Positions 45,976-62,684 of a DNA stretch of 64,000 bases are shown here, piece by piece. The stretch is from Streptomyces erythrochromogenes (GTDB lineage Bacteria; Actinomycetota; Actinomycetes; Streptomycetales; Streptomycetaceae): the NCBI RefSeq assembly GCF_036170895.1, contig NZ_CP108036.1:5325501-5389500 (forward strand). The letters run 5' to 3'. The position numbers were made by a program, and so were the translations under genes. Under the pieces are notes generated by a model that was not told the DNA's origin, ran no database searches, and saw nothing but the letters and a program-made list of their open reading frames with translations. The first letter of the stretch is position 1. Each line of letters opens with the position of its first letter.

Positions 45976-46977
45976 TCAGCCGCGCCGGATGGTGATGGTG
46001 GTCCAGGCACCCACGTGGACGCGGTCGCCGTCGGCGAGCGGGACCGGGACGTAGGGCTGGATCGGGTCCTCGCCGCCGTTGATGGTGGTGCCGTTGGTGG
46101 AGTTCTGGTCCACCACGGCCCAGCTCATGTCGGGCTGCTGCACCAGCACCGCGTGCTGGTGGGAGACGCCCGGGTCCTCCGGGGGCACCGACAGGTCGAT
46201 GTCGGGGGACTCGCCCGTGGAGGCGCGGCGGCGACCGATGGTGATCTGGCCACCGGACAGCGGGAGGTGCTGCTCCGGGGAGTACGCGGGCAGGTTGAGC
46301 CCGGTCGCCTCCGGTCCGCTGCGCTGCATCATCGCCATGAAGTACGAGCGGTCGGGGCCGATCGTCGCGCTCCAGGACCCGCCCTGGGGCGGGAGGGGCT
46401 GGTACGGCGGCGTCTGGGGCTGCTGCCGGTACTCCTGCTGGTACTCCCGCTGGTGCTGCGGCGGGGGCTGCTGCTGGTACTGGGGCTGCGGGGCCTGCTG
46501 GTACGCCTGCGGCGGCTCGTGCGAGGGAGGCGACAGCAGCCAGTCGTCCTCGCGCTGCAGCGGCTCGGCCGGGCGGTTGACCCGGGACGGCCGCGAGCCC
46601 TGGTACTCGAAGTGGTCCTGCGCGTACGTCCCCGCCGCGGGCACGGGCGGCGGGGGCGTGCTGCCTGGGCGGGGCCCGCCGGGGGCGCCCGTGCCGGGCC
46701 CCGGCGCAGCCGGGTCCGTGGCCGGCGGCGCGTACGCGGTCGCCGAACGGGTCAGGTAGTTGTACCGGCACTCCTCGCAGAACGGGGCCATGGCCTCGCG
46801 CGGGGTACGGCACTGCGGGCAGAGCTCTGCCTGGGCGGTCGGTTCACCGGCGGTCGGGGGGAAGCCGTAGCCGTAGGAAGGCACCGCGGGGGGTCCCTCC
46901 GGGGCACCCATGCGGTGGCCGCAGACCTCGCACCAGTCGTCGGAGGCGGACTGGTGCCCGTTCGGGCAGGTCGGCAT
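45976..46977 (-). CDS. FHA-domain protein with N-terminal zinc ribbons
   Basis: A 333-residue protein. The N-terminus has two zinc-ribbon pairs, PTCPNGHQSASDDWCEVCGH and ELCPQCRTPREAMAPFCEEC. A Pro/Gln-rich low-complexity linker (about 85-230) leads to a C-terminal FHA domain (about 252-333) with ITIGRRRASTGE, GVSHQHAVL and DQNSTNGTTING, the residues that bind phosphothreonine. It should read threonine phosphorylation by the upstream kinase. ATG 46977 has a G-rich box upstream; ATG 47010 lacks one. It is the last gene of the signalling operon. Confidence 0.88.
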   Translation of the reverse strand: MPTCPNGHQSASDDWCEVCGHRMGAPEGPPAVPSYGYGFPPTAGEPTAQAELCPQCRTPREAMAPFCEECRYNYLTRSATAYAPPATDPAAPGPGTGAPGGPRPGSTPPPPVPAAGTYAQDHFEYQGSRPSRVNRPAEPLQREDDWLLSPPSHEPPQAYQQAPQPQYQQQPPPQHQREYQQEYRQQPQTPPYQPLPPQGGSWSATIGPDRSYFMAMMQRSGPEATGLNLPAYSPEQHLPLSGGQITIGRRRASTGESPDIDLSVPPEDPGVSHQHAVLVQQPDMSWAVVDQNSTNGTTINGGEDPIQPYVPVPLADGDRVHVGAWTTITIRRG

Positions 46978-47022
46978 GGCGGCTCTTCCCCCTTCTTCTC
47001 CCTGCGTCATCGCGGGAGGCTC

Positions 47023-48348
47023 TCAGAACTTCTTCACTCGGACGGTCTGCGTCGAACGTGTTTCGAGAGTCATCTCGTCGGCGTCGGCAACCTTCGCTTT
47101 CAGCCGCACAGTACCCGCCACCGCGTCCACCACATCCACCACCTTCGACAGGAGTCGCGCCGTGTCGGCGTTCCCGGAGACGCTCGCCAGTTGTACGGCC
47201 CGTCCGAGTTTGGCCGTAGCACCATCGACATCGCCCATTTTGCGGGCTTCGAGGCCCTGTTGGATAGCCTGCGCCAGCTCCGCCTGCCCCGTGTAGTGGG
47301 CGACCTGCGGGTTGATGGCGGTGGACGCGGCCACGTCGTTCGTCCACACCGCGCGCACCAGGCCCTGGGCCAGGACGGCCTCGGGCTCGCCGCCCGTCGC
47401 GGGCCGCACCAGCGTGGCGCGGGAGGCGAGCATCTCCTGGCCGACGGCCGCACCGGGCACGCGCACGCACACGTGGTACTCGCGGGACTCGTCGCCCCAC
47501 GATCCGGTCGGATAGTCGCCCGCGCGCGGGCCCGAGTCGGTACGGCGGTCGGTCAGGTCCTGGACGGTCGGGGCGACCTGCTTGACGTACTGGATCTCCA
47601 CGCCGACCGGGGTCCACAGGCGCAGCGAGACGTCCGCGACCTCCTTGCCCATGACGTTCTCCATCATGCGGGTGAAGTCCTCGGTGAGGTGCGCCGGGTC
47701 GGCCACGATGTCGGCGGAGCCGAGCAGGGCGCTCGCGATGCCGGTGACCTCCTTCACCTCCCAGTCGGTGCCCACACCGCGGGCGTCGCAGGTGAAGCGG
47801 CCCGCGCAGGCGTCGAGGGCGGCGCGCAGGACGGCCGGCTCCTCGTGCTCGTTGCGTCCGTCGGTGAGCAGGATGCCGTGGCGGATGGCGGCGGTGGAGC
47901 CGCGCAGCAGGCCGTCGGCCAGGCGCAGCCAGGTGCCGATGGCGGTGCCGCCGCCGGCGCTGAGGCCGCGCAGGGCCTCCTTGGCCTGGGCGCGGGTGGC
48001 CGGGTCGGCGACGGCGAGGCGGCCCTGGCCGGGATAGACCTCCTTGGCCACGTGCGTACCGGCGATCACCGCGAAGGCGGTGCCGTCCCGCAGGGTGTCG
48101 ACGGCCGCGGCCGTGGCCTCGCGGGCGCCGCGCATCTTCTCCGCCGGGTACTCCATGGAACCGGAGCAGTCGACCATGATCACGACGGCTGCCGTGCCGT
48201 CGGCGGGCTTCCCGCGGGTGACGCTGCCGCCGCCGGTGGCGGTGACGGTGACGATGGCGTGGACGTCCCGCCCGCCTTCGGGAAGGAACTCGTTCTGGTA
48301 CACGTCCACGCTGAAGCGCGGTGCGCTCGGCTTGGCGAAATTCGCCAT
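47023..48348 (-). CDS. von Willebrand factor A domain protein
   Basis: A 441-residue soluble protein. A VWA domain (about 50-230) has the MIDAS motif DCSGSM at residues 60-65, with the further metal-site elements GGGTAIG and LLTDGRNEHEE. The C-terminal 200 residues are a separate beta/helical region ending in KMGDVDGATAKLGRAVQLAS (TPR-like). It lies 33 bp from the PP2C gene. VWA proteins in kinase/phosphatase clusters (the TerY-P triads) are thought to assemble metal-dependent complexes; here the same set is present. Confidence 0.88.
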   Translation of the reverse strand: MANFAKPSAPRFSVDVYQNEFLPEGGRDVHAIVTVTATGGGSVTRGKPADGTAAVVIMVDCSGSMEYPAEKMRGAREATAAAVDTLRDGTAFAVIAGTHVAKEVYPGQGRLAVADPATRAQAKEALRGLSAGGGTAIGTWLRLADGLLRGSTAAIRHGILLTDGRNEHEEPAVLRAALDACAGRFTCDARGVGTDWEVKEVTGIASALLGSADIVADPAHLTEDFTRMMENVMGKEVADVSLRLWTPVGVEIQYVKQVAPTVQDLTDRRTDSGPRAGDYPTGSWGDESREYHVCVRVPGAAVGQEMLASRATLVRPATGGEPEAVLAQGLVRAVWTNDVAASTAINPQVAHYTGQAELAQAIQQGLEARKMGDVDGATAKLGRAVQLASVSGNADTARLLSKVVDVVDAVAGTVRLKAKVADADEMTLETRSTQTVRVKKF

Positions 48349-48381
48349 CGGCTGGACTCCTAGAGGGCTCGGGCAGGCGGG

Positions 48382-49977
48382 TCAGACCTGCGGGCGCGCT
48401 TCCACTTCCGGTTTCGGTGCTGCTGCCGGGCCGGGCCCCGCGGCCGCTCCCGGTTCCCCTTCGGGCTGCGTGGCGAACGGCACGACGGCCACGGTGATGT
48501 TGTCGTGGCCGCCGCCGTCGAGGGCGTGCCCCACGAGCACCTGCGCGCTGTGCAGCGGGCGGACCGCCGCGTCGACGGGCAGCACCTGGGCCATCTCCCG
48601 CGCGGACTCCGCGTAGTTCCACAGTCCGTCGGTGCAGACCACCACCACGCCGGGGTGGTCCGGCTTGAAGATCGCGGTGTGCGGTTCGAGTTCGTAGGCG
48701 TCGGCGCCCAGCCAGCCGGTGATGGCGTGCGCGCGGACGTCCGCGTAGGCCTCGGCCTCGCCCATCAGGCCTGCGGCGACCATCTGGGCGGCCCACGAGT
48801 CGTCCTCGGTGAGGCGGCGGGGCAGTGCGGCGCGGTCGTCGGGCACCCAGTAGGCGCGGCTGTCGCCCACCCAGCCGATGGTCAGCAGGCCGCCGCTGAC
48901 GACGGCGCCGACCAGGGTGCAGGCGGGCGCGTTCTGCGCGCCGGGGACCTCCGGGGCCAGGGCGTTGACCGCCGCGGCGGCGGCCAGGATCGCCTCGTGC
49001 ATGGCCTCCTGGGGGTGCGCGCCGCGGGGGAGGGCCTCCAGCAGGGCCTCGTTCGCGGCGCCGGCCGCGGCTGCGGACGCCTCGTCGGGGCGGCTCGCGG
49101 AGGAGACCCCGTCGCACACGATGGCCACGGTCGCGGCCGAACCGTCGGGCAGGGCGGTGGCCGACACGGCGAACGAGTCCTCGTTGCGGTGGTGGCGCAG
49201 CCCCCGGTCGCTGACGGCCGCGACGCTGCCCAGCTCCTCCTCGACGTGGTCGCGCTCCCGGGGCTGGGCGTGCCCGCAGTGCTCGCAGTACCCGTCGGTG
49301 TCGACGTGCCCGGCCCGGCAGGCCACGCAGGTCTTCCCGCCTGGCGCGGCGCCGGACGGGGGCGCGCTGTCGTAGGTGTCCCCGTACGGGTTCTCCGCGC
49401 CCCAGGGTGCTTCCTCGGGGGGCGGGCCGGGGTCGCCGCCGGGGCGGTCGTGGCGGGTCTCGGGGCCGTCGGCCGGATCCGGCCGGCCCTGGCGGGCGGG
49501 GCCGGCCGCGCCCCAGGAGGTCCCCTCCGGGGGCGTGCCGGTGCTGTACGGGTTCTCGTGGCCCTGGCCCGGGTACGAGGCTCCGGCCGGGTCCGGCCGA
49601 GGCTCCGGTTCCGGCTCCGGCTGTTGCTGCGCCGGGGCGGCCCAGTCGGCCGGGTCCCCCACCAGGGTCGGCGCGGCCGCGGCCACGCTGCCCCAGCCGG
49701 GGGCGGGTTCGCCGGCGCCGGGGGAGCCGTGCGAGCCGGCCGGGGCCGGGATCCCGTAGCCGCCCGCGGGGGCGGCCTGGGCCGGCGCGGCGACGGCGGC
49801 CGGGGGCGCGGGGGCGGCCGGCGCGGGTGGCGCCGGTGGGATGGGGACGGTCGGGTGGTCCGTGGACGAGGCCGCGGGAGAAGGGGTCAGGGCATAGCCG
49901 CAGAGACCGCAGAAACGGTCACCCTCTTCGAGGGGTTCCGCGCAGCTGGGGCAGCCCGACAGCCGATGCATCGACAT
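48382..49977 (-). CDS. PP2C-family Ser/Thr phosphatase with zinc ribbons
   Basis: A 531-residue protein. Two zinc ribbons, CPSCAEPLEEGDRFCGLCG at the N-terminus and CVACRAGHVDTDGYCEHCG near residue 220, flank a disordered Pro/Gly-rich linker. The C-terminal PP2C domain (about 250-500) has SDRGLRHHRNEDS, IVCDGVSS, WVGDSRAYWV, VCTDGLWN and GGHDNITV, so the metal-binding Asp set is complete. It is expected to oppose the PknG-like kinase encoded just upstream, 3 bp from its stop codon. Confidence 0.9.
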   Translation of the reverse strand: MSMHRLSGCPSCAEPLEEGDRFCGLCGYALTPSPAASSTDHPTVPIPPAPPAPAAPAPPAAVAAPAQAAPAGGYGIPAPAGSHGSPGAGEPAPGWGSVAAAAPTLVGDPADWAAPAQQQPEPEPEPRPDPAGASYPGQGHENPYSTGTPPEGTSWGAAGPARQGRPDPADGPETRHDRPGGDPGPPPEEAPWGAENPYGDTYDSAPPSGAAPGGKTCVACRAGHVDTDGYCEHCGHAQPRERDHVEEELGSVAAVSDRGLRHHRNEDSFAVSATALPDGSAATVAIVCDGVSSASRPDEASAAAAGAANEALLEALPRGAHPQEAMHEAILAAAAAVNALAPEVPGAQNAPACTLVGAVVSGGLLTIGWVGDSRAYWVPDDRAALPRRLTEDDSWAAQMVAAGLMGEAEAYADVRAHAITGWLGADAYELEPHTAIFKPDHPGVVVVCTDGLWNYAESAREMAQVLPVDAAVRPLHSAQVLVGHALDGGGHDNITVAVVPFATQPEGEPGAAAGPGPAAAPKPEVEARPQV

Positions 49978-49980
49978 CAA

Positions 49981-52900
49981 TCACACCCACGTCCGGGGAC
50001 GGAAACGGTTGGCCCGTTCCACCAGTTCGATCCTCTCCTCGCCACGCCGTGCCAGCCGTGCGAGGACGCGGTACGAGCGCTCCAGTCCGAAGCGCAGGCC
50101 CCGCTCGTCCAGTTGACTGCCGAGCAGCGAGGTCCGGCCGGGGTCGGCACCCCGGCTACCCGACAGTACCCAGTCCAGGGCCGAGCCCAGAACCTCCGTC
50201 GCCAGCAACTCCTGCCGTTCCGGGTCCAGCCCGAACCTCCGCAGGGCCTCCACCTGGTCGGCGGCGGCCGAAAGATCGGCCAGCAGCGGCTCGTCCGGTG
50301 ACCGGTCGCGCAGACGTGCGCGTACGGCCGCCACCCGCGCGGCGGTGTAGTGGATGGACGCCTCCGGCACGGATTCCAGCGTGCGGACGGCTCCGTCCCG
50401 GTCGCCGGCGGCCAGTTGGACCCGGGCGAGTCCGAACGCCGCGCTGACGAATCCCGGGTCGGTGATCCAGACCAGGCGGTAGTACTCGGCGGCGTTGTCC
50501 AGCTGGCCGAGCACCTCCGCGCACAGTCCGAGGGCCAGCTTCGGCGCGGGCTCGCCCGGGAAGGCGTCGTAGATCGCGTCGAAGGACAGCGCCGCTATCT
50601 CGTCGTCGCCGGTGGCGAGCGAGGCGATGCCCCGGGCCCACACGACCCGCCAGTCGTCCGGGTGGCGGCCCTCCAGCTCGGCCAGCGCGTCCCCGGCCGC
50701 GGACAGTTCGCCGAGCTCCAGCCGGGCGCGCAGCTCCCGCAGCCGCAACTCGGCCGAGTCGGCGGGCGCCGAGGCCAGCGCGCCCAGCAGATCGCCGGGC
50801 GCGGAGGCCAGCAGACCGGTCAGGAAACCGGCGTTGGGGTCGGCGGCGTCCACCAGCGGCACGGGCAGCGCCAGTGCGCTGTCGCGGGCGTCGAGCGTGG
50901 TGGCGGGGCGGCTGCCTCCGGCGGGCGGCGCGGTCAGGGGCGCGGGGCCCCCAGCGGTCGCGGGAGCCTGCCGTGCCCGGGGCACGGCCGCCGCGGCCAC
51001 ATGCGTGGCGGTGGTCCCGAGCGCGGCCCCGCCCGGGTCTGAGCCGGGCAGGCTGCCTCCGCCGAAGGCGGGCGGGTTCCCCGCGCCGGGCGCGGCGGTT
51101 CCCGCCGAAGCGGCTGCGCCGCTGGGCGCGGCCTGCCAGGTACCCGGCGCGCCGGGGGCCGCTGCGGGCAGGCCCACGCCGCCGGGCGGGGTGCCGGCGC
51201 CGAGCCGGGTCGGATGTGCCGGTGCGGCTGCGCCGCCGGGCGGGGTGCCCGGGCCGAATGAGGCCGGGTTCGCCGTGCCCGGCGCGGTGCCTGCGCCGCT
51301 GGGCGCGGGGTGCCGGGTACCCGGCGTGGCGGCGGGGGCGGACCCGGGAAGGCCGGCGCCCGCGGGCACGGGCGTGCCGCCCGGCGGGGTGCTGGCGTGG
51401 GACTGGGCGAAGCCCTGCGGGGCCGATGTGCCGGCGGCCGTGGCCGCGGCCGAAATCCCGGGTCTGCCCGTCGCCGAAGCCGTCGGCAGGGCCGGGCCGC
51501 GGCCCAGGCGGCTCCGCAGGCCGCCGCCCCGGCGGGGCGCGACCGGGCGGTCGCCCAGGCGGGAGACGACCGTGTCCGCCGTGTCCGTGCCGGTGAACAG
51601 CCGGGTGTCCGGCACCCGCAGCTCCGGGCCGAAGAGGGTGGACAGCTGCGGCCGCGGCATGCCCGTCTGCAGCGCGACCACCTCCCGCAGCACACCGGTC
51701 AGCTGGTCGGCCATCTCCTGCGCGGAGGCGAACCGCCGCCCCGGGTCCGGGTCGGTCGCCCGAACGAGCAGCCGGTAGAAGGACTCGTACCGCCGGAACA
51801 CCTCGATGTGCTCCGGGTCCGGCAGCGAATCCGCGAACACATTGGTGTAGCCCTGGAAGTCGAAGGTCAGGACGGCCAGCGTGCGCGCCACCGTGTACAG
51901 GTCGGAGGCGACCGACGGCCCCAGCTCCGCGACCTCCGGGGCCTGGTAGCCCACCGTGCCGTAGATGGCCGACTCCTCGTCGTCCATCCGCCGCACCGCG
52001 CCCATGTCGATCAGCTTCAGCTGGTCCTGCTGCTGGATCGCGTTGTCGACCTTGAAGTCGCAGTACAGAAGGTTTCTGCTGTGCAGGTGGCCGAGCGCCT
52101 CCAGCGCTTCGATGCCGTACGCGCACGCCTGTTCCACCGGCAGCGGGTCGCGCCGCCCGTCGGGTCGGCGCCGCTCGTTCGCGATCTCCTTCAACGACTT
52201 GCCGCCGACGTACTCCATGACGATGTACCCGTCCAGCGAACCGGTCCGCTGGTCCAGGTGCTCCACGAAGTTGTAGATCCGCACGATGTTGGAGTGCTCG
52301 ATCTCCGCGAGGAAGCGCCGCTCCGAGATCGCGGCCTCCATCGCGTCCTGGTCGCCGGTGTCGAGGAGGCCCTTGAGGACCACCCACCGGTCCGCGACCG
52401 CCCGGTCCACCGCCAGGTACACCCAGCCGAGGCCGCCGTGCGCGAGGCAGCCCGCCACCTCGTACTGGCCGCGCACCACTTCACCGGCGCGCAGCTTGGG
52501 CACGAAGGAGTACGGGTGCCCGCACTTGGTGCAGAAGCCCTCCGTCCGGCCCGGCCGGTCCCCGCGGGCCCGGCCCACCGGGGCGCCGCAGTCCGAACGC
52601 GAGCAGAACCGCTTGCGCTCGGGCACCTCCGGGTTCTCCAGGACCGCAGTCGAGGGGTCGGGGCGCGGTACCTCCGGAACGCTGACCAGGCCGGCACCCA
52701 GCCGGCTGCGCCCCGAGGAGGAGGCGGGCGAGCCCGAGCTGCGCACCGAGACCGAGCGGGTGGACGCCTGCCCCGTCAGGGACCGCGACAGCCGCCCGGA
52801 CACCGAGCGGCGGGAGGAGGAGGACCGGGAGGACCGGGCCGAGGCCGAGGAGCGCGCCGAACCGTGGGACCCCTGTGACCCGTGCGATCCCCGGGACCCG

Positions 52901-53088
52901 CCGGAGCCCAGGGAGCCGCGGGCCGCGCTCGTCATCCCCGTCGGCGGGGACACCAGCTCCTCCGCGCCCGCCGCGACCGAGCCGACCGGCGCCAGGCCGC
53001 AGGTGTCGCAGTACAGCTCGCCGCCGCCCATGTCCTCGTACGTCCCCGGGCAGCCGGGGCGAACGCACGCTGCTCCGCTCAGGCTCAT
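49981..53088 (-). CDS. pknG: PknG-like serine/threonine protein kinase
   Basis: A 1035-residue soluble kinase. Its N-terminus has CVRPGCPGTYEDMGGGELYC and a second zinc-ribbon/rubredoxin-like pair, RFCSRSDCGAP with GFCTKCGHPY. The kinase domain (about 230-500) has WVVLKGLLD (ATP Lys), HSRNLLYCDFKVDN (catalytic Asp344, in place of HRD) and LIDMGAVRRMDD for DFG. A 200-residue Gly/Pro/Ala linker leads to TPR repeats that complete the mycobacterial PknG order (rubredoxin - kinase - TPR). Mycobacterial PknG phosphorylates GarA to control glutamate metabolism. It overlaps the upstream gene in ATGA. Confidence 0.92.
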   Translation of the reverse strand: MSLSGAACVRPGCPGTYEDMGGGELYCDTCGLAPVGSVAAGAEELVSPPTGMTSAARGSLGSGGSRGSHGSQGSHGSARSSASARSSRSSSSRRSVSGRLSRSLTGQASTRSVSVRSSGSPASSSGRSRLGAGLVSVPEVPRPDPSTAVLENPEVPERKRFCSRSDCGAPVGRARGDRPGRTEGFCTKCGHPYSFVPKLRAGEVVRGQYEVAGCLAHGGLGWVYLAVDRAVADRWVVLKGLLDTGDQDAMEAAISERRFLAEIEHSNIVRIYNFVEHLDQRTGSLDGYIVMEYVGGKSLKEIANERRRPDGRRDPLPVEQACAYGIEALEALGHLHSRNLLYCDFKVDNAIQQQDQLKLIDMGAVRRMDDEESAIYGTVGYQAPEVAELGPSVASDLYTVARTLAVLTFDFQGYTNVFADSLPDPEHIEVFRRYESFYRLLVRATDPDPGRRFASAQEMADQLTGVLREVVALQTGMPRPQLSTLFGPELRVPDTRLFTGTDTADTVVSRLGDRPVAPRRGGGLRSRLGRGPALPTASATGRPGISAAATAAGTSAPQGFAQSHASTPPGGTPVPAGAGLPGSAPAATPGTRHPAPSGAGTAPGTANPASFGPGTPPGGAAAPAHPTRLGAGTPPGGVGLPAAAPGAPGTWQAAPSGAAASAGTAAPGAGNPPAFGGGSLPGSDPGGAALGTTATHVAAAAVPRARQAPATAGGPAPLTAPPAGGSRPATTLDARDSALALPVPLVDAADPNAGFLTGLLASAPGDLLGALASAPADSAELRLRELRARLELGELSAAGDALAELEGRHPDDWRVVWARGIASLATGDDEIAALSFDAIYDAFPGEPAPKLALGLCAEVLGQLDNAAEYYRLVWITDPGFVSAAFGLARVQLAAGDRDGAVRTLESVPEASIHYTAARVAAVRARLRDRSPDEPLLADLSAAADQVEALRRFGLDPERQELLATEVLGSALDWVLSGSRGADPGRTSLLGSQLDERGLRFGLERSYRVLARLARRGEERIELVERANRFRPRTWV

Positions 53089-54494
53089 GCGTCCTCCGTC
53101 CCCGGCCCGTCGGGCCGCTCTTCCCGGTGCTGCTGTTGCTGTTGTTCGGGCCGGTGCTGCGGCACCAGCGACTCCGCCGCCGCCTGCTGGTAGCGCAGGA
53201 CGGCCTGTTCGGCGGCCCGCAGGTCGCAGGGCGCGCTCCACAGCATCCGCCGGGCCGTGTCGTACCTCTCGATCAGCAGGGGGTCCTCCGCCAGGCCGTG
53301 GCGGGCGACCTTCGCCTTGTAGGCGTCGAGACGCCCGCGCAGCTCGGCGCGAACGGCCAGCGGAGCCGTCACCGCGGTCAACGATTCACGGGCCCTGCGC
53401 AGTTCCTCCTCAGCCCGCTCCTCCAGGGATTCCAGCAGCGGCGACAGCCGGTGCCAGCGCGCGTGGCGCCGGTGGTCGGCCGCCGCCGCGAGCTGCTCCT
53501 GGAGCACCGTCGGCGGGCCGCTGACCACGGGCACCTCGGACGCGGCGATCTTCGCCAGCACCTCGCCGCGCGCCGTCCGCGCCTCCGCCAGGGTCCGGTC
53601 GGCCCGCGAGAGCACGTCGCGCAGGCTGATCAGCCGCTGCTCGGCGTCCTGCCGTACGGCCAGCACCGCCTCGACCTCGCGGCGTACGTCCTCCAGCGCG
53701 AGCGCGGCCCGGTCGTAGCGACCGGTGTCGGGGCGGCCGCCGCCGGGCGCGGAACTCCCGGCGGCGGGCCGCCAGAAGGCCAGCGGATCCGCGATCACCT
53801 GGGCGCGCAGGTCCGTCAGCTCGGCGGTGATGTACTCCAGGTCGTCGCCCGAGGGGTGTTCGCCCGGGCGCACGCCCACCGAGTGGGCCAGCGAACGGGT
53901 GCGGTGCAGCTCGGCGGCGAGCAGGTCGATACGGGCGGGCAGCGCCGACCAGACGGCGTCGGCCGCGACCACCACGTCCAGCGAACGCGCGTAGAGGTCG
54001 TTCATCCGGGTCACGAGCTCGGCGAGGGAGAGCCGCTCCGCCAGTGCGGCGCCCTCGGCGGCGGCCCCGGCGATCAGGACCCCGGGCCCGCGCAGCCGCT
54101 CGGTCAGCTCGATCAGCTCGTCGCGGCCCGGCCAGCGGCGCCGCTCACGGATCTCCCGGGCGGCGGTCAGCGCCCCGCTGTAGGCGTCGAAGTACGTCCA
54201 CAGCCGGGTGATGTCCGCGTCGGCGCCGGCCCACCGCTCCTTGGTGAGGCCGGTCAGCGCGGCGCCCTCCAGCAGCCGGCGCCCGGCGTGGTCCTGGAGG
54301 GCGAGCAGCGAGGTCTCGACGGCCTCGTGCTCGGCGCCCAGCCTGGTCAGGGCGCGGTCGACGCCGTCCCGGTCCATCACTGCAGACCCCGCCTCCACCG
54401 ACTGTGCCTCCGCTTCCGCCGCCGCCTCCGTGTTCGCTTCCGTGTGCCCCTCCGTGTCCGACCTCGCGCCCGGTCCCGTGCCCGAAATCGCCAC
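53085..54494 (-). CDS. Helical coiled-coil-rich protein of unknown function in the PknG operon
   Basis: A 469-residue soluble protein, almost entirely helical with heptad-like stretches (VRREVEAVLAVRQDAEQRLI, TLAEARTARGEVLAKIAASE, ESLEERAEEELRRARESLTA). A polyglutamine run sits near the C-terminus. It has no enzyme motifs. It lies between glnH and pknG, overlaps pknG by 4 bp and begins 5 bp after the glnH stop. No equivalent lies between them in mycobacteria. GTG 54494 is used; the conserved-looking body may start at ATG 54380. It could be an adaptor between membrane sensor and kinase. Confidence 0.75.
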   Translation of the reverse strand: MAISGTGPGARSDTEGHTEANTEAAAEAEAQSVEAGSAVMDRDGVDRALTRLGAEHEAVETSLLALQDHAGRRLLEGAALTGLTKERWAGADADITRLWTYFDAYSGALTAAREIRERRRWPGRDELIELTERLRGPGVLIAGAAAEGAALAERLSLAELVTRMNDLYARSLDVVVAADAVWSALPARIDLLAAELHRTRSLAHSVGVRPGEHPSGDDLEYITAELTDLRAQVIADPLAFWRPAAGSSAPGGGRPDTGRYDRAALALEDVRREVEAVLAVRQDAEQRLISLRDVLSRADRTLAEARTARGEVLAKIAASEVPVVSGPPTVLQEQLAAAADHRRHARWHRLSPLLESLEERAEEELRRARESLTAVTAPLAVRAELRGRLDAYKAKVARHGLAEDPLLIERYDTARRMLWSAPCDLRAAEQAVLRYQQAAAESLVPQHRPEQQQQQHREERPDGPGTEDA

Positions 54495-54499
54495 CGGCC

Positions 54500-55594
54500 T
54501 CAGCCGTCCCGGTACTTGGGCGCGGGCGGTCCGGTCACGCCGGGCAGCACGGGCTGGAGGTGCTTGAGGTACGCCTTCATCCACGGGCTGTCATTGCCGC
54601 CCGCGCGGTAGTTCTCCAGCACCTTGTTGACCCGGCGGACCAGGTCGGGGGCGTCCTTGTTCATCGCGACCCCGTAGAACTCGCGGGTGAAGGGCGAGCC
54701 CACCAGCCGCACCGAGGGGTCCTGCGCCGCCTGGCCGGCGGCGAGCGCGTTGTCCGTGATGATGCCGTCGACCTCGGCCAGCTGGAGCCGGACCAGGCAG
54801 TCGAGCTGGTTGGCCACGGTGACCGGGGCCGCGCCGTAGGACTGGGCCTTGAGCGCGCTCTCGGCGGTGGAACCGGCCGCGACGCAGATCCGCTTGTCCT
54901 TCAGCGAGGCGTCGTACCCGGTGATCGGCGAGCCCTTGGGGGCCAGCACCTGCTGCCCGGCCTCGAAGTAGGCCGTCGAGAAGGCGACGTCCTCCAGCCG
55001 CTTGCAGTTGACGGTCATGGTGCGCACGACGATGTCGACGCGGCCCTCCTGGAGGGCGGGGATGCGCTGGCTCGTCGGGATGGCCCGGTAGATGACCGCG
55101 TTCTCGTCGCCCAGGATGTCCTTTGCGATGGCCTTGACCAGGTCGATGTCGAAGCCGTCCAGGCGGCCGCCCTCCGCGGTCTGGTTGCGGTACCCCCAGC
55201 GGAAGCTGTTCTGGTCCACGCCCGCGACGAGCTTGCCCGCCGCCTTGATCCGCGCGATGGCCGCCCCGTCCACGTCGGACGGGCGCAGGCTGGCCTCGGG
55301 GTCCTGGCAGGTGTCCGAGAGGACCCAGGGCGCCGCCGGGGCCGCCGGGGCCGGCCCGCGGGCGGGCACACCGGGTGTGGTGTCCGGAGTCGCGTGGGCC
55401 AGCGGCAGCAGCACGACCGCGGCCGTCATGGCGCAGGCGACGGCCATCGCGCTCACACCGCCCCAGCCGCGCAGCCGGCGCGCGGCCCGCCGGACTCCGG
55501 GCACCGAGCCCGGGGCACGTGTGCGGACCTCGTGCTCCTCGTACTCCTCATGGCCTTCGGCGGCCCGCCTCGCCCGTATCCGCATCGCTCTCAC
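54500..55594 (-). CDS. glnH: GlnH-like amino-acid-binding protein, membrane-anchored
   Basis: A 364-residue SBP_bac_3 protein. Residues 1-65 hold a charged cytoplasmic start (EEYEEHEVRTRA) and one membrane segment (SAMAVACAMTAAVVLLPL). The binding domain follows with KLVAGVDQNSFRWGYRN, LDGFDIDLVKAIAKDILG, GRVDIVVRTMTVNCKRLEDV and EVDGIITDNALAAG. In mycobacteria the equivalent GlnH senses aspartate and glutamate and signals through GlnX to PknG. GTG 55594 overlaps the glnX stop in GTGA. It has no ABC transporter genes beside it, so its role is sensing rather than uptake. Confidence 0.88.
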   Translation of the reverse strand: MRAMRIRARRAAEGHEEYEEHEVRTRAPGSVPGVRRAARRLRGWGGVSAMAVACAMTAAVVLLPLAHATPDTTPGVPARGPAPAAPAAPWVLSDTCQDPEASLRPSDVDGAAIARIKAAGKLVAGVDQNSFRWGYRNQTAEGGRLDGFDIDLVKAIAKDILGDENAVIYRAIPTSQRIPALQEGRVDIVVRTMTVNCKRLEDVAFSTAYFEAGQQVLAPKGSPITGYDASLKDKRICVAAGSTAESALKAQSYGAAPVTVANQLDCLVRLQLAEVDGIITDNALAAGQAAQDPSVRLVGSPFTREFYGVAMNKDAPDLVRRVNKVLENYRAGGNDSPWMKAYLKHLQPVLPGVTGPPAPKYRDG

Positions 55595-57000
55595 CTGTAC
55601 TCCGAAAGCCTGCGCCCGATACCGAGCAGGGCTGCTGTCGCGCCGATGACCACCAGTACCGCCGAGCCCGTCACCAGGCCGCCCAGCGCGCCCAGACCGT
55701 CCTGGGCGGCGCGGGTGAACTCCCGCTGCTCGTGGGCGACGGCCTGTTCCAGGGAGGCGTCCACCGTGTCGAAGGCGGCGCCGCTGCTCTCCTTGTGCTG
55801 CGCGTCCCCGACGACCTGCGGCAGCGCGGCTTCGTAGTCGCCCTTCAAGTCCGCCTCCCGGGCCGCCGTGTGCCGCTGCTTCCACTGCTCGACGCCGTCC
55901 ACGGCCCGGCCCACGGGCGTCCGGCCGTCGTCGTCGTCGGCCAGCCGCAGCGCGGTCGCGAGCCCCGCGTCCAGCTGCTTCATGTTGTTCGTGAAGTCCA
56001 CGTCGTACTTGTCTGACTTCTTGTCCTCGGCCAGTACGGCGCCCCGCGCGATCAGTGTCAGGTTCTCACTCGCCCGGGCCTGGAGGGAGGCGATCCGCGC
56101 GTCGTTGAGCACCTTCATCGACTCCTGCCCGTCCGTGCGGGCTTCACTCAGCGAGGAACGCGCCACCGTGTGGCCGACGGACAGCCAGAGCAGCACCACC
56201 ACGGAGGCGGCGGTCGCGGCCACCAGCCCGTGGTTGAAGACCCGGTTCGTGTGGCGGTAGTTGCGCCGCTGCGCCCACACCAGGGCGGCCACGGCCAGCA
56301 CGCCGAGGCCCAGCGAACCCAGCGGCCAGGACCGGGCGGCGTCGTCGTCGGTGTGCAGCCGGCGGGTCTCCGCCTCGTACAGCCGCTGGGCGGCGGGCAG
56401 CAGCTGGGTGGTCATCTGTTCGTTGGCGTAACGGAGGTACGCGCCGCCCAGCGGCAGGCCCTGCCGGTTGGTGGCCCGGGCCTGCTCGATCAGGCCGGTG
56501 TAGCGCGGCAGCTGCTCGCTCAGCAGGGTGATCTGCTCGCGGGACTCCTTGCTGCCGCCGGTGTTGGCGGCGGCGCTCACCAGCAGGCGGGACGCGTTGG
56601 CGATGTCCTTCTCGTAGCGCTGGCGGACCTCGCGCGGCTCCTGCGCGCCGAGGAGGAACCCGCTGGAGGAGGTGGTGTCGGCGTCGGCGAGGGAGCGGTA
56701 GATGCTGGCCGCGTCCGCGCTCAGCGGCTGGCTGCGGCCCACCACGTCGTCGGCGGCGGTGGCCCGGGCGGAGATCTCCCACACGCTCACCGTGCCGAAC
56801 AGCACGATCAGGGCGGCCAGTACCGCGCCGATGATCCGCAGCCGGCCCGGTTCGGTGGTGGCGGCCTCGCGCAGCCGCTGCACTCCCTCGGACCAGGCGG
56901 TGCGCCGCCCCGGCGGCCCGTCGGGCGGCGACGCCGGCGCGCCGGCGGGCGGCGCGGAGACACCACCCCCGGGCGCGGGCGCGCGTGATGTGATCGCCAC
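55591..57000 (-). CDS. glnX: GlnX-like four-helix membrane sensor
   Basis: A 469-residue membrane protein with four hydrophobic helices (about 53-73 LRIIGAVLAALIVLFGTVSV, 225-245 LGSLGLGVLAVAALVWAQ, 262-282 LVAATAASVVVLLWLSVG and the C-terminal GLVTGSAVLVVIGATAALLG). Two helical extracellular domains lie between helices 1-2 and 3-4, with coiled-coil character. It is the start of the operon and the counterpart of mycobacterial GlnX, which passes the GlnH signal across the membrane. GTG 57000 has GGGGGAGG 5 bp upstream. The N-terminal 40 residues are proline-rich and cytoplasmic. Confidence 0.85.
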   Translation of the reverse strand: MAITSRAPAPGGGVSAPPAGAPASPPDGPPGRRTAWSEGVQRLREAATTEPGRLRIIGAVLAALIVLFGTVSVWEISARATAADDVVGRSQPLSADAASIYRSLADADTTSSSGFLLGAQEPREVRQRYEKDIANASRLLVSAAANTGGSKESREQITLLSEQLPRYTGLIEQARATNRQGLPLGGAYLRYANEQMTTQLLPAAQRLYEAETRRLHTDDDAARSWPLGSLGLGVLAVAALVWAQRRNYRHTNRVFNHGLVAATAASVVVLLWLSVGHTVARSSLSEARTDGQESMKVLNDARIASLQARASENLTLIARGAVLAEDKKSDKYDVDFTNNMKQLDAGLATALRLADDDDGRTPVGRAVDGVEQWKQRHTAAREADLKGDYEAALPQVVGDAQHKESSGAAFDTVDASLEQAVAHEQREFTRAAQDGLGALGGLVTGSAVLVVIGATAALLGIGRRLSEYR

Positions 57001-57209: not shown

Positions 57210-58217
57210 TCAACCGAAATGGGCACGGAGTTTTCCGTGGGCCTCCGCCGGAGCCCCGAGCGCGTCCAGGCCGAGCAGTCCGGCGCCCAGCACCGGAGGC
57301 GCCGTGACCACCGTGATCCGGACACGCGGGGCCCGTTCGGCGAGGCCCGCCGCGATCCGGTCGTCGAGCCCCGGGTGCCGGGCCGCCAGCACCCCGCCGC
57401 CCAGCACCACCGGTACCTCCTCGTCCAACAGGCCCAGGCGGCCCAGCGCCACCACGGCCATGGCCACGACCTCGTCGGCCTGGCGGTGCACCAGCGAGAG
57501 CGCCACCGGGTCCCCGGCGGCGGCCACCTCGAACAGCACCGGGGTCAGTTCGTGCCGCCGGCCGGCCGGCACGTCCCCCAGGTGCACGGCCTCGATCAGC
57601 GAGGCCATCGAGTCGTGGCCGAGGCGGGCGGGCAGCGCCCGGGCCAGCTCCGTCGCCGCGCCCCGCCCGTCCTCCGCCCGGGCCGCGAACCACAGGGCCT
57701 CCTCGGCCAGTCCGCCCCCGCCGCCCCAGTCGCCGGAGATCCGCCCGACCGCGGGGAAGCGCGCGGTCCGCCCGTCCGGGGTCATCCCGACGCAGTTGAT
57801 GCCCGCCCCGCACACCACCGCGACGCCCCGCGGCTCGGCGCCCGGCGGCAGGCCGGCGCGCAGCAGTGCGAAGGTGTCGTTGCGCACCGCGGTGGCGCGC
57901 CCCCAGCCGCGGCGCCCGATCTCGTCCGCCAGCCGCCGCTCCTCCACGGGGAAGTCGGCGTTGGCGAGGCAGGCCGACACGTGCTCGGCGACGGGCCCGG
58001 ACCCGCCGCCGGCGGCCACCCCAGCCGAGGCCAGCGCCTCGGCCAGGACGTCCACGGCCGCGGCCACCCCGGTGCGGGGCGGCTGGAAACCCCCGGCCTG
58101 CCCGGTGGCCAGCACGGACCCGTCGGGGCCGATGAGCGCGACGTCCGTCTTGCTGTTGCCCGCGTCGATCGCGAGGACCGGGGGGAGGGGCAGGCGGGTC
58201 ACGCGGGTCACGCCCAT
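57210..58217 (-). CDS. csnK: BadF/BadG/BcrA/BcrD-type sugar kinase, csnK
   Basis: A 335-residue actin-fold (ASKHA) kinase. The phosphate-1 block is VLAIDAGNSKTDVALIGPDG, followed by CGAGINCVGMTPDGR, RISGDWGGGGGLAEEALWFA and VLGGGVLAA. It is the N-acetylglucosamine-kinase-like type. It follows csnH by a 10-bp overlap and closes the csnR-csnE-csnF-csnG-csnH-csnK operon. It probably phosphorylates the glucosamine (or similar) freed by the GH4 enzyme. ATG 58217 has AAGGAG 8 bp upstream. Confidence 0.85.
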   Translation of the reverse strand: MGVTRVTRLPLPPVLAIDAGNSKTDVALIGPDGSVLATGQAGGFQPPRTGVAAAVDVLAEALASAGVAAGGGSGPVAEHVSACLANADFPVEERRLADEIGRRGWGRATAVRNDTFALLRAGLPPGAEPRGVAVVCGAGINCVGMTPDGRTARFPAVGRISGDWGGGGGLAEEALWFAARAEDGRGAATELARALPARLGHDSMASLIEAVHLGDVPAGRRHELTPVLFEVAAAGDPVALSLVHRQADEVVAMAVVALGRLGLLDEEVPVVLGGGVLAARHPGLDDRIAAGLAERAPRVRITVVTAPPVLGAGLLGLDALGAPAEAHGKLRAHFG

Positions 58218-59482
58218 GGCAGGTGCTCCTTGTTGTGGGCGAGGAGCCGGTCGGTCAGCCCTTCGGCCAGGTCGTACTGGCCGATGAGCGGGTGTGCCAG
58301 CAGCGCCTTGAACACCCGCTCGCGGCCGCCGCGCAGGGCCGCGTCCAGCGCGAGGTCCTCGTACGCCGTCACGTGCGAGACCAGCCCGGCGAACAGCGGG
58401 TCCAGGCGCGGCACCGGGAGCGGTACGGGCCCGGAGCCGCCGGTGGCGCGGACGCGCGCCTGGACCTCGACGACGGCGTCGTCGGGCAGGAAGGGCAGTG
58501 CGCCGTTGTTGGACGTGTTGACCACCTGCACGTCCGTGCCGCCGCCGCCCAGCAGGGCGGCCGCCAGGTCCACGGCCGCCTCCGAGTAGAAGGCGCCGCC
58601 CCGCTTCGCCAGCAGCGCGGGCTTCTCGTCGAGCGCCGGATCCGCGTACAGGGCCAGCAGTTCGCGCTCCATCGCGGCGACCTCCGCGGCCCGCGAGGGC
58701 TTGGTGCCCAGCTCCCGTACGACCTCGTCGTGGGAGTAGAAGTAGCGCAGGTAGTACGAGGGGACGACGCCGAGCCGGTCCAGCACGGCCCGCGGCAGCC
58801 GCAGGTCCGACGCGACGGCCTCCCCGTGCGCGGCCAGCAGCCCGGGCAGCAGGTCCTCGCCGTCCGGGCCGCCCCGGCGCACGCCCAGTTCCCAGGTGAG
58901 GTGGTTGAGGCCGACGTGGTCCAGGTGGACGTCGGACGGGGCCAGTTCCAGCAGGGCGGCGAACTTCCGCTGGAGGCCGATGGCGACGTTGCACAGCCCG
59001 ACGGCCTTGTGCCCGGCCCGCAGGAGGGCCCGGGTGACGATCCCGACCGGGTTGGTGAAGTCGATGATCCAGGCGTCGGGGCTGGCCCGGCGGACCCGTT
59101 CGGCGATGTCGAGGACCACGGGGACGGTGCGCAGGGCCTTGGCGAGCCCGCCCGCGCCGGTGGTCTCCTGGCCGACGCAGCCGCACTCCAGGGGCCAGGT
59201 CTCGTCCTGGAGCCGGGCGGCCTGTCCGCCGACGCGCAGCTGGAGGAGGACGGCGTCGGCCCCGGCGACGCCCGCGTCGAGGTCGGTGGTCGTGGTGACC
59301 AGGCCGGCGTGGTCCTGCCGGGTGAAGATCCGGCGGGCCAGGGCGCCGATCAGCTCCAGCCGCTCGGTGGCCGGGTCGATCAGCACCAGCTCCTCGACCG
59401 GCAGGGTGTCGCGCAGCCGCGCGAAGCCGTCGATGAGTTCGGGGGTGTAGGTGGAACCGCCGCCCACCACTGCGAGTTTCAA
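58208..59482 (-). CDS. csnH: GH4-family glycosidase (csnH)
   Basis: A 424-residue glycoside hydrolase family 4 enzyme, the NAD- and Mn-dependent type. N-terminal Rossmann motif: LKLAVVGGGSTYTPELIDGF; NAD/metal motifs: TNPVGIVTRALL, GLCNVAIGLQRKF (Cys ligand) and GLNHLTWELGVR. It hydrolyses by redox elimination, unusual among glycosidases. In the csnR-K type operon it probably cleaves imported glucosamine oligosaccharides. TTG 59482 has AAAGG 9 bp upstream; the permease stop lies 5 bp before it. Confidence 0.87.
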   Translation of the reverse strand: MKLAVVGGGSTYTPELIDGFARLRDTLPVEELVLIDPATERLELIGALARRIFTRQDHAGLVTTTTDLDAGVAGADAVLLQLRVGGQAARLQDETWPLECGCVGQETTGAGGLAKALRTVPVVLDIAERVRRASPDAWIIDFTNPVGIVTRALLRAGHKAVGLCNVAIGLQRKFAALLELAPSDVHLDHVGLNHLTWELGVRRGGPDGEDLLPGLLAAHGEAVASDLRLPRAVLDRLGVVPSYYLRYFYSHDEVVRELGTKPSRAAEVAAMERELLALYADPALDEKPALLAKRGGAFYSEAAVDLAAALLGGGGTDVQVVNTSNNGALPFLPDDAVVEVQARVRATGGSGPVPLPVPRLDPLFAGLVSHVTAYEDLALDAALRGGRERVFKALLAHPLIGQYDLAEGLTDRLLAHNKEHLPWA

Positions 59483-59487
59483 CGTCG

Positions 59488-60399
59488 TCAGCCTTTCACG
59501 CCGGTCAGGGTGACTCCCTCGACGAACGCCTTCTGGGCGAAGAAGAAGAGGACGATCACCGGGGCCATGACCAGCACGGTCGCGGCCATGGTCAGGTTCC
59601 AGTTGGTGTGGTGCGCCCCCTTGAAGGACTCCAGTCCGTAACTGAGGGTCCAGGCGGCGGGGTTGTCGGAGGCGTAGATCTGGGGGCCGAAGTAGTCGTT
59701 CCAGGCGCAGAAGAACTGGAACAGTGCGACGGCCGCGATCCCGGGCCTGGCCATCGGCACGACCACGCGCAGCAGGGTGCGGACCTCGCCGCAGCCGTCC
59801 ACGCGCGCCGCGTCCAGGTACTCGTCGGGGATGGTCAGCAGGAACTGGCGCAGCAGGAAGATCGAGAAGGCGTCGCCGAAGGCCATCGGGACGATCAGCG
59901 GCCACAGGCTGCCCGACAGGTCGAGCTGCCTGGCCCAGAAGAGGTACATGGGGATGACCACCACCTGCGGCGGCAGCATCATCATCGCGACCACCAGCAT
60001 CAGCGACAGGTTGCGCCCGCGGAAGCGGAACTTGGCGAGCGCGTACGCGACGGGCACGGAGGAGACCACGGTCAACAGGGTGCCCAGTCCCGCGTACAGG
60101 AGCGTGTTGCGCCACCAGGTCAGGAAGCCCGGGGTGTGCCACACCTGGGCGTAGTTGCCCCACTCCCAGGTGTCGGGCCACAGGTCGCGGGTCAGCGCCT
60201 GCCGGTCGCCCATCAGGGAGGTGAGCAGGAGGAACACGAAGGGGAGGACGAAGAAGAGGGCGGCGGCCACGCCGAGCGAGTGCACCGCGATCCAGTGCAG
60301 TACGGCTTTTCGGCGGTGGGCGCCCCCTGTCCGTTGCGTGTCCGCGGGCCGTTGCGTGTCCGCGGGCCGGAGCGTGCCCGTGGTCCGGTTCGTGCTCAT
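59488..60399 (-). CDS. csnG: Carbohydrate ABC transporter permease (csnG)
   Basis: A 303-residue inner-membrane permease of the MalG-like CUT1 family, with six hydrophobic helices. The EAA loop is EYLDAARVDGCGEVRTLLRV. The N-terminus has the duplicated motif RPADTQRPADTQR, encoded by an exact 18-bp tandem repeat (60331-60366). It overlaps csnF by 4 bp (ATGA). It pairs with csnF as a heterodimer; the ATPase (probably MsiK) is encoded elsewhere. Confidence 0.9.
   Translation of the reverse strand: MSTNRTTGTLRPADTQRPADTQRTGGAHRRKAVLHWIAVHSLGVAAALFFVLPFVFLLLTSLMGDRQALTRDLWPDTWEWGNYAQVWHTPGFLTWWRNTLLYAGLGTLLTVVSSVPVAYALAKFRFRGRNLSLMLVVAMMMLPPQVVVIPMYLFWARQLDLSGSLWPLIVPMAFGDAFSIFLLRQFLLTIPDEYLDAARVDGCGEVRTLLRVVVPMARPGIAAVALFQFFCAWNDYFGPQIYASDNPAAWTLSYGLESFKGAHHTNWNLTMAATVLVMAPVIVLFFFAQKAFVEGVTLTGVKG
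60331..60366. repeat. 18-bp exact tandem duplication in csnG
   Basis: CCGTTGCGTGTCCGCGGG is present twice, at 60331-60348 and 60349-60366, in the 5' end of csnG (read on the minus strand). It duplicates the six residues RPADTQ in the cytoplasmic N-terminal tail, so it should not disturb the membrane domain. Confidence 0.9.
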
Positions 60400-61340
60400 C
60401 GTCCTGCTCCGATCAGACCGCCACGGCGCCGCATCAGGAGTGCGGTGAAGGCCATGGAGAGGGCGAACAGGACCAGTGCCACGACGCACGCTGCGCCGTA
60501 GTCGAAGCGCTGGAAGCCGAGGTTGTGGACGAGCTGGGGCAGGGTCAGGGTGGACCGGTCCGGGTAGCCCGGCTCCAACTGCTGGCCGGAACCGCCGATC
60601 ACCCCGGCCGCGACCTTCCCCGCCACCAGCGGCTGGGTGTAGTACTGCATGGCCTGGATGACCCCGGTGACCACGGCGAACATGATGATCGGCGAGATGT
60701 TGGGCAGGGTGATGTGGCGCAGCCGCGCCCAGGCCCCGGCGCCGTCCAGCTCGGCCGCCTCGTACTGCTCCTTCGGTACGTCGAGCAGCGCGGCCATGAA
60801 GATGACCATCAGGTCGCCGACCCCCCACAGGGCGAGGGCGGTCAGCGCGGGCTTGGACCAGTCGGCGTCGGTGAACCAGCCGGGGGCGGGCAGTCCCACC
60901 GCGTCCAGCAGGGTGTTGGCGGGTCCGGTCCCGGGGTTGAGGAGGAAGACGAAGGCCAGGGTCGCGGCGACCGGCGGCGCCAGGTAGGGCAGGTAGAAGA
61001 GGGTCCGGAAGACCCCGACCCCGGTCTTGATCTTCGTGGCGAGCAGGCCGACGCCCAGGCCGAAGACCACGCGGCAGCTCACCATCACCACCACCAGCCA
61101 CAGGGTGTTGCGCATCGCCGGCCAGAACAGCGGATAGTCGGTGAAGACGTAGCTCCAGTTGTCCGCGCCGTTGAAGGCGGGCGGGCGGAAGCCGTCGTAC
61201 TTCGTGAAGGAGAAGTACACGGTGGACAGCAGGGGGTAGGCGAAGAAGACCGAGAAGCCGATCAGCCAGGGGGACATGAAGGCCGCGGTCCGCAGGGCGG
61301 ACCGCAGGCGCTTCGACCGCGGGGCGCGGGCGGCGGACAC
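60396..61340 (-). CDS. csnF: Carbohydrate ABC transporter permease (csnF)
   Basis: A 314-residue MalF-like CUT1 permease with six helices (first: FMSPWLIGFSVFFAYPLLST). The EAA loop is EQYEAAELDGAGAWARLRHI with TLPNISPII. It overlaps csnG in ATGA and follows csnE with a 3-bp gap, with GGAG 8 bp before the GTG start at 61340. Together with csnE and csnG it imports sugar, by operon analogy chitosan-derived glucosamine oligosaccharides. Confidence 0.9.
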   Translation of the reverse strand: MSAARAPRSKRLRSALRTAAFMSPWLIGFSVFFAYPLLSTVYFSFTKYDGFRPPAFNGADNWSYVFTDYPLFWPAMRNTLWLVVVMVSCRVVFGLGVGLLATKIKTGVGVFRTLFYLPYLAPPVAATLAFVFLLNPGTGPANTLLDAVGLPAPGWFTDADWSKPALTALALWGVGDLMVIFMAALLDVPKEQYEAAELDGAGAWARLRHITLPNISPIIMFAVVTGVIQAMQYYTQPLVAGKVAAGVIGGSGQQLEPGYPDRSTLTLPQLVHNLGFQRFDYGAACVVALVLFALSMAFTALLMRRRGGLIGAGR

Positions 61341-61343
61341 CGG

Positions 61344-62684
61344 CTACTCCGCCTTCGCGATGTCCGTGTCGATCTGCCGGTCGACCTCGGCGAGACCGGC
61401 CGTGATGTCGGCGACCCCGCCCTTCTCGACCGCGTACGCGAAGTCCTGGAAGGTCAGCTGGTAGGTGCCGCCGTCGGCCCGGGCCGGGGTGGTGCCGGAC
61501 TTCGGGTGCCGGGCGATGTCGAGGAAGGTCCGCAGCTCCGGGGTCACCTTCAGGTCCGGGGACTCCAGGGCGGCGAGCGTGGACGGCACGTTGTGGATGG
61601 CGTTGGCGAAGGCCACCACCGCCTCGGTGTCGGTGGTCATGTACTTGACCAGTTCCCAGGCCGCGTTCTGCTTCTTGCTGCCGGAGGCGATGCCGACGAC
61701 CGTGCCGGAGAGGTAGCCCTTGCCGTAGTCGGCGGCCTGGTCGTCCGGGACGGGCAGCGGAGCCGTGCCGATCTCGAAGCCGACACCCGCCTCCTTGGCC
61801 ATGGGGGCCCGCCACTCGCCGTCGATCTGCATGGCCACCCGGCCGGTGTGGAAGGGGTGCTCGGCGCTCCACTCGTCGCCGAAGGTGCTGCGGAACCGCT
61901 CCAGCTTCTCGTATCCGCCGAGCGCCGCCACCAGGTCCTTCTGCGCGGTCAGCATCTTCGCGAAGGCCGGGTCCCGGGAGAGGTTGGAGCGGCCGTCGGC
62001 GTCGAAGTAGGTGGGGCTCCACTGCGCGGCGAGCCGCATGGGGGTGGTCTCGTAGCCGTGGAAGGTGGGCATCAGGCCGACCTGCTCGTAACTGTCGCCC
62101 GAGGCGTCGGCCTTCGTCAGCTTCTGCGCGACCTCGACGAAGCGGCTCCAGGTCTTGGGGGGTTCGGTGATGCCTGCGGCGGCGAAGGCGGTCTTGTTGT
62201 AGACGAGGCCGTACGCGTCGTTCAGCAGCGGAAGGGTGCACTGGTTGCCCTTGAACTGCGTGTATTCCAGCAGGGTCTTGGGGAAGACCTTCGTCTTGTC
62301 GACGCCGGACTTGTGCAGGAAGGGGTTCAGGTCGGCGAAGGCGCGGGAGTTGCAGAACTGGCCGACGCTGTCCGTGGTGAAGGAGGAGACCACGTCGGGG
62401 GCCTTGTCCCCGCCCGCGCGCAGCGCCTGGTTGATCTTGTCGTCGGTCATGTTGCCGGTGACCTCGACCTTGATGTTCGGGTGCGCCTTCTCGAAGCGGG
62501 CGATGCCTTCCTCGATGGCCTGGACCTCGCCCGGCGCGGACCAGCCGTGCCAGAAGGAGAGGGTGACGTCCGCCTTCGGGTCGTCGGTGGCGGAGTCGGC
62601 GGCCCGGCCCGTACACGCCGTGGCGAGGGCGGATATCGCCGCGAGGAGGGCGGCTGCGGTGGTCAGGCGTCCGGTTCTGGGCAT
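61344..62684 (-). CDS. csnE: Sugar-binding lipoprotein of the ABC importer (csnE)
   Basis: A 446-residue solute-binding protein. Lipobox LATAC with the lipidated Cys at residue 24; then the SBP_bac_1 fold with TLSFWHGWSAPGEVQAIEEG and typical hinge-lobe segments (GDKAPDVVSSFTTDS, GRVAMQIDGEWRAP). It captures oligosaccharide outside the membrane for the CsnF/CsnG pair. The ATG at 62684 follows 99 bp after the csnR stop; a GGAACTTCC palindrome lies in that gap. Confidence 0.9.
   Translation of the reverse strand: MPRTGRLTTAAALLAAISALATACTGRAADSATDDPKADVTLSFWHGWSAPGEVQAIEEGIARFEKAHPNIKVEVTGNMTDDKINQALRAGGDKAPDVVSSFTTDSVGQFCNSRAFADLNPFLHKSGVDKTKVFPKTLLEYTQFKGNQCTLPLLNDAYGLVYNKTAFAAAGITEPPKTWSRFVEVAQKLTKADASGDSYEQVGLMPTFHGYETTPMRLAAQWSPTYFDADGRSNLSRDPAFAKMLTAQKDLVAALGGYEKLERFRSTFGDEWSAEHPFHTGRVAMQIDGEWRAPMAKEAGVGFEIGTAPLPVPDDQAADYGKGYLSGTVVGIASGSKKQNAAWELVKYMTTDTEAVVAFANAIHNVPSTLAALESPDLKVTPELRTFLDIARHPKSGTTPARADGGTYQLTFQDFAYAVEKGGVADITAGLAEVDRQIDTDIAKAE

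Follow-up and report, generated by a model that had tools for sequence, protein, structure and literature searches.

In a 64,000-nucleotide stretch of Streptomyces erythrochromogenes contig NZ_CP108036.1 (the window), seven minus-strand genes running from position 57000 down to 45976 encode the membrane protein GlnX, the solute-binding protein GlnH, a helical protein of unassigned family (HEL), the kinase PknG, a PP2C phosphatase, a VWA protein and an FHA protein. This order, proposed in an earlier note made from the sequence alone, was confirmed. We judge it fairly probable that the operon is one nutrient-signalling module and the full form of the PknG pathway, which has been studied through GarA/OdhI in organisms with three of the seven genes (PMC6069109, PMC9769921, PMC8546545; papers are cited throughout in their accessible parts). 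New here are the breadth of the seven-gene set, a mycobacterial operon that is probably a reduced form of it, an extra kinase zinc ribbon that tracks the core genes accompanying pknG, and the kinship of the VWA-FHA pair to archaeal ArnB-ArnA. In the accessible open-access PMC literature we found no description of PP2C, VWA or FHA genes with glnX-glnH-pknG, although Fig. 2B of PMC6069109, on operon conservation, may show them.

Conservation of the seven-gene set

A PknG_TPR search of 246 Actinomycetes genomes gave matches in 79, 77 of them over the curated cut-off, across eight families. The 98 other loci over the cut-off and the window make 99, of which 98 have a usable PknG match; iterated profiles were used for the seven protein families. 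All seven occur together at 42 of the 98 loci: 20/29 in the window's family (f1), where eight of the 29 are second PknG copies, 6/14 in f17, 9/26 in f18, 5/5 in f26, and 1/1 in each of f11 and f42. The sole f27 locus is cut, with PknG, PP2C, VWA and FHA present. At the locus without a usable PknG match (L137; G153:C25:39822-58963), from the window's genus, glnX, glnH, pknG and the VWA gene appear fragmented, and HEL, PP2C and FHA remain. Counted from the VWA side, 53 of 62 rows in the 246 genomes lie within 6 kb of PknG_TPR (taking rows of at least 79 bits, leaving out weaker ones, and counting the fragments of a single gene as one); the nine unlinked rows comprise two probable contig breaks and seven separate f18 loci. 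We read this linkage as more than chance; the earlier note had proposed a survey of conservation across actinobacteria.

A scan of named genomes with the VWA alignment kept 80 loci, which were picked by VWA and are therefore no test of its presence. A PknG match above 250 bits is present at 65 of the 80, and 47 of these 65 have all seven families; genera with the module include Nocardioides, Kribbella, Cellulomonas, Kineosporia and Terrabacter. Judging from some of them, the 15 loci without such a match are cut at contig ends, contain N runs or are rearranged. When the named loci are restricted to those that have sufficient flanking sequence and are free of N runs, PknG, PP2C and FHA are all present at 57 of 60; the exceptions are L149, L195 and L212, in which, as in L202 and L215, other open reading frames (ORFs) intervene or sit upstream. 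In a phylum sample of 296 genomes, full-length VWA orthologues (>240 bits) were found in ten genomes (nine of f1, and G419), all ten with PknG, and eight f4 genomes have PknG without a full-length VWA orthologue. Outside the class, this sample contains a single genome in which PknG matches strongly, that of L227, where the sensor pair lies behind the core on the opposite strand.

The sensor pair glnX-glnH precedes the core in most families and follows it in f17. It could be argued that glnX-glnH-pknG and HEL-PP2C-VWA-FHA are two independent units, neighbours by chance or through shared regulation: f4 holds glnX-glnH-pknG alone, and at five f18 loci PP2C-VWA-FHA has no adjacent PknG-type match. 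But in every arrangement with all seven genes pknG lies inside the second unit, as HEL-pknG-PP2C, and it is glnX-glnH that moves around; the extra zinc ribbon of the kinase also tracks the core genes. We regard two separate units as the least probable of the alternatives considered, and highly improbable in itself.

In f4, which PknG and GarA scores suggest is Mycobacteriaceae, glnX-glnH-pknG is present at 19 of 21 loci and pknG alone at the other two, and HEL, PP2C, VWA and FHA are found at none (0/21). The three-gene operon is the one known from M. tuberculosis, M. smegmatis and C. glutamicum (PMC6069109). Among 150 genomes of the order to which an f4 genome belongs, strong VWA matches occur in f107, f110, f117, f119 and f37, the only f4 match being weak (2.3e-4). 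In a PknG tree of 76 sequences, for which no root was inferred, 11 f4 kinases form one clade, and the presence of PP2C, VWA and FHA requires four changes (45 sequences scored as having them and 20 as lacking them, with 11 unclear rows excluded). Because the seven-gene form is widespread, VWA occurs in other families of f4's order and L227 lies outside the class (a copy that could be transferred or mis-binned), we favour loss of the core genes in f4: the three-gene mycobacterial operon is probably a reduced form of the seven-gene module. The idea of the earlier note that two systems had been joined at this locus gives way to a widespread seven-gene set and a three-gene form that looks derived.

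The VWA-FHA pair and the active sites

The VWA protein (47023..48348) has the fold of ArnB, with a VWA domain (with VWA_3_C), a beta-sandwich and a C-terminal helical bundle in one chain, at an identity of about 12-14% to the VWA chains of 8s05. The FHA protein (45976..47010; PF00498) consists of two zinc ribbons, a linker and a C-terminal FHA domain; the best matches of its family profile are 8s05_C and 5a8i (ArnA), with ribbon and FHA parts both aligned. The two families align with ArnB and ArnA over near-full length, and the pair is kin to archaeal ArnB-ArnA in both fold and sequence. Sec23/24 chains appeared in the VWA Foldseek list only, with none among the 50 listed rows of a second comparison; the PDB title of 8s05 refers to an archaeal ortholog of the Sec23/24 core motif.

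In Sulfolobus acidocaldarius, ArnA-ArnB (PMC6509490; 8s05, 5a8j, 5a8i) likewise joins a VWA protein of this three-part fold to a partner with a zinc finger and a C-terminal FHA domain, and kinases, a phosphatase and a link to nutrients are described (PMC6509490). The window set differs in being bacterial and in sharing an operon with the genes for sensor, kinase and phosphatase; its kinase is PknG-type and its phosphatase a PP2C, whereas the archaeal phosphatase is PP2A (PMC6509490). Another of the nearest known counterparts is 4FX5, a von Willebrand factor type A protein (caci_2163) from Catenulispora acidiphila, which in its accessible record is known as a structure without an assigned function.

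Fixed-pattern motif counts were misleading (FHA N-G 30/120), and residues were counted in alignment columns instead, with thresholds of 650 (PknG), 280 (PP2C), 400 (VWA), 120 (FHA) and 250 bits (GlnH), so that degenerate copies are not counted. All five MIDAS residues are intact in 132/132 VWA rows. The VWA protein ends in an S-T-x-T tail whose codons in the window, for S432-T433-Q434-T435 (47044..47055), specify a candidate phosphoacceptor; its three S/T positions hold S or T in 131, 126 and 131 of the 132 rows over 400 bits, and residues 435-441 have a pLDDT below 50 in the predicted structure. In the FHA domain the glycine and serine are present in 127/127 rows, and the arginine and the asparagine in 125 each; the histidine position is H in 110 rows and Q in the other 17. 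The active-site residues of PP2C are retained in 123/123 rows, and the kinase lysine, catalytic aspartate, asparagine and DFG-type aspartate in 148/148 PknG.

The PP2C protein (48382..49977; PF13672, PF13240) carries two N-terminal zinc ribbons and scores 104 bits to the Stp1-like NF033484, under the family cut-off. HEL (53085..54377), which adjoins pknG upstream, has no Pfam or NCBIfam match and is found by iterated profile at 115 of 179 loci; its predicted structure is all helix at low confidence (mean pLDDT 74, pTM 0.40), and Foldseek gave no match to this model at E 0.001. Two candidate gene fusions were dropped as evidence for a complex, the L154 ORF spanning unknown letters and that of L081 reading through a partial, frame-shifted HEL.

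Kinase, sensor pair and locus layout

The pknG gene (49981..53088) encodes, in order, an extra N-terminal zinc ribbon (from 53067), a Ser/Arg-rich segment, rubredoxin, the kinase domain, a Pro-rich linker and a TPR domain; PF16919, PF00069 and PF16918 match over cut-off, and the score to 2pzi is 563 bits. The extra ribbon ahead of rubredoxin is present in 95/103 core-linked PknG, in 0/21 of f4 and in 5/20 others without the full core (four rows were too short for judgement), and tracks the presence of the core genes. The ribbons that the earlier note had pointed out on kinase, phosphatase and FHA protein are conserved in all three, with counts of 111/112 for PP2C and 108/114 for FHA, and their pattern is similar in the three proteins. 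The Ser/Arg-rich segment (SRRSVSGRLSR...RSVSVRSS, 52735-52815, minus strand), which also lies ahead of rubredoxin, is near-invariant in 17 aligned PknG of the window's genus.

The earlier note had classed VWA, PP2C and kinase as a TerY-P type triad, in which these three are likewise encoded together. As a family this was rejected on the architecture of the kinase, with its C-terminal PknG_TPR and N-terminal ribbons, and the ArnB fold of the VWA protein likewise does not support it. A switch of TerY-P-like kind, for metal sensing or defence and built on a PknG kinase, would fit the adjoining genes and the intact metal site of all 132 VWA rows, and an actinobacterial set of kinase/zinc-ribbon, PP2C and vWA with GAP1-N2 genes is on record (PMC7159879). 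But the kinase ribbons are N-terminal, whereas in TerY-P a zinc ribbon or OB fold is fused to the C-terminus of the kinase, and triads as defined in the accessible part of PMC11090510 have no sensor pair and no FHA protein, both of which are present in the window. PADLOC returned generic kinase matches only, on which account a defence system was set aside; the flanks recur among relatives (GH4 at 17/29 and PCMT at 18/29 same-genus loci), and the four changes on the PknG tree amount to few gains or losses. We consider such a switch very unlikely.

The glnX gene (55591..57000; NCBIfam NF058618, 484 bits) was given a GTG start at 57000, chosen from the sequence, with a GGAGG-type ribosome site ahead; against the stricter NF041460 it scores 182 bits, below the cut-off of 780. 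The product of glnH (54500..55594) is a family 3 solute-binding protein (PF00497, SBP_bac_3) with 191 bits to M. tuberculosis GlnH, 6h1u. With residues numbered as in the M. tuberculosis protein (PMC6069109) and matched by eye, it retains R147, T162, R169 and D250 and has the substitutions K161 to R, S164 to T and W232 to Q. Position 232 is W in 19/19 of f4, Q in 19/20 of f1, Y in 12/12 of f17, mainly I in f18, and H in 36/47 named loci: the residues for the alpha groups are retained, and those of the side-chain pocket vary between lineages. The ligand of GlnH is probably an amino acid, and aspartate or glutamate is plausible. At its N-terminus the window GlnH has a hydrophobic segment with no clear lipobox where the segment ends. 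GlnH in the window's genus seems in general to have no lipobox, while examples from f4, f18, f26 and f42 have one (few rows, judged by eye), and in this genus it may be held by an N-terminal helix. At ten loci the core genes are retained although GlnX is weak and GlnH gave no match; we take nine of them to be Propionibacteriaceae, by title or by placement of the genus, and the tenth is Mobilicoccus.

Two core-linked f18 kinases (L138:12936-15074, L139:12908-14992 (-)) have no TPR domain, and no GlnX or GlnH match was found beside them. Their joint absence agrees with the contact between TPR domain and GlnX that has been proposed in the literature (PMC8546545), though the catalytic loop (DLAPGN) is altered as well; with a DFG-type motif of DLQ, these kinases are possibly altered or inactive. 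Some genomes of the window's genus encode a second PknG-type kinase (L135:5382-12907, L133:6205-13689), with a trypsin-like protease, a second VWA protein, an unknown protein and a family 1 solute-binding protein as neighbours. Among four such second VWA proteins a zinc ribbon is fused behind in all four, and an STKT- or STRT-type motif stands near the end in three (not L133). Second PknG copies in f18, which have GlnH and GlnX on the other strand and lack PP2C-VWA-FHA, were seen at L109, L110, L112, L116, L121, L122 and L128.

The close spacing described in the earlier note holds with one exception. GlnX and GlnH overlap by 4 bp, given GTG as the GlnH start, and HEL and PknG by 4 bp (ATGA); the gaps are 3-9 bp from PknG to PP2C, 33 bp from PP2C to VWA and 12 bp from VWA to FHA. 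The gap from GlnH to HEL, measured to the likely HEL ATG, is about 122 bp and the sole junction over 50 bp. A promoter and terminator scan, limited to sigma-70-type sites, found nothing. In the host genome, of 8.6 Mb in two contigs, the PknG rubredoxin and TPR models each match once.

As to the tellurium or restriction genes with which TerY-P is linked, the window flanks examined contain GH4, a BadF-type gene, a permease, PCMT, a thioesterase and some unmatched ORFs. Among these flank ORFs we saw none for an amino-acid transporter, in line with the earlier note's view of a binding protein without transporter genes beside it. Directly upstream on the same strand (57210-63507) lie GH4, a BadF/BcrA-type ATPase and an ABC permease ORF (59488-63507); given these two neighbours, the permease probably belongs to a sugar cluster. 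BadF-type genes recur at 15 of the 29 same-genus loci, a set that includes second-copy and truncated loci.

GarA and a proposed signalling route

The locus resembles the GlnX-GlnH-PknG-GarA/OdhI pathway in having a related membrane protein, a binding protein and a kinase with the same domains (PMC6069109, PMC9769921, PMC8546545), and the window genome also encodes, elsewhere, a GarA with its motif (L032; SETTS; 193.8 bits against a family cut-off of 200, so slightly short of it). In contrast to the mycobacterial and Corynebacterium glutamicum pathway, the window adds HEL, PP2C, VWA and FHA in the same run; its kinase has the extra N-terminal ribbon, and Q replaces W232 of GlnH. GarA was found in 233/246 genomes, most of them without PknG, and in 79/79 genomes with a PknG_TPR match. 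Since GarA with its motif is present in the window genome and GarA in all PknG_TPR genomes, the FHA protein is no replacement for it.

The core genes might instead serve this known output only, with PP2C dephosphorylating GarA, the FHA protein competing with GarA for PknG and the VWA protein acting as a scaffold, and with no separate ArnAB-like output. The constant presence of GarA beside PknG_TPR, SETTS motif included in the window genome, is in keeping with this, as is the recruitment of an FHA substrate by C. glutamicum PknG (PMC8546545). Yet most genomes with GarA have no PknG, f4 runs without the four extra genes, and a competitor or plain scaffold would not need near-full-length matches to ArnA and ArnB. 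We think this explanation unlikely.

For the single nutrient-signalling module that we favour, we infer each interaction, substrate, ligand and output as follows. GlnH would bind an amino acid outside the membrane and act on GlnX, which, judging from published mycobacterial and corynebacterial work, would contact the TPR domain of PknG inside. PknG would phosphorylate GarA, as it does in other organisms, and in addition the VWA protein, where the likeliest sites are the C-terminal helices or the S-T-x-T tail. Once phosphorylated, the VWA protein would be bound by the FHA protein with its zinc ribbons, as ArnB is by ArnA, and PP2C, encoded between the kinase and VWA genes, would reset the phosphorylation state. 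The zinc ribbons of kinase, phosphatase and FHA protein, together with the helical protein, may hold the set together. We tentatively propose, as something that could well be true but falls short of an even chance, that a bacterial ArnAB-type VWA-FHA complex is a second, unrecognised output of PknG in most PknG families, running from sensor to PknG to phosphorylation of the VWA tail and FHA docking, reversed by PP2C, and that mycobacteria lost this branch. From the writer-eraser-reader complex under a sensor that the earlier note envisaged, a conserved module travelling with GlnX-GlnH has emerged; the physical complex we infer.

Should the seven-gene module prove to be the older form, an eraser and a reader that are missing from the standard model are present in most PknG families, and PknG targets besides GarA become testable in antibiotic producers. 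The module gives a setting to structure 4FX5, and it connects a bacterial operon for nutrient sensing with archaeal ArnAB, a complex whose core is Sec23/24-like.

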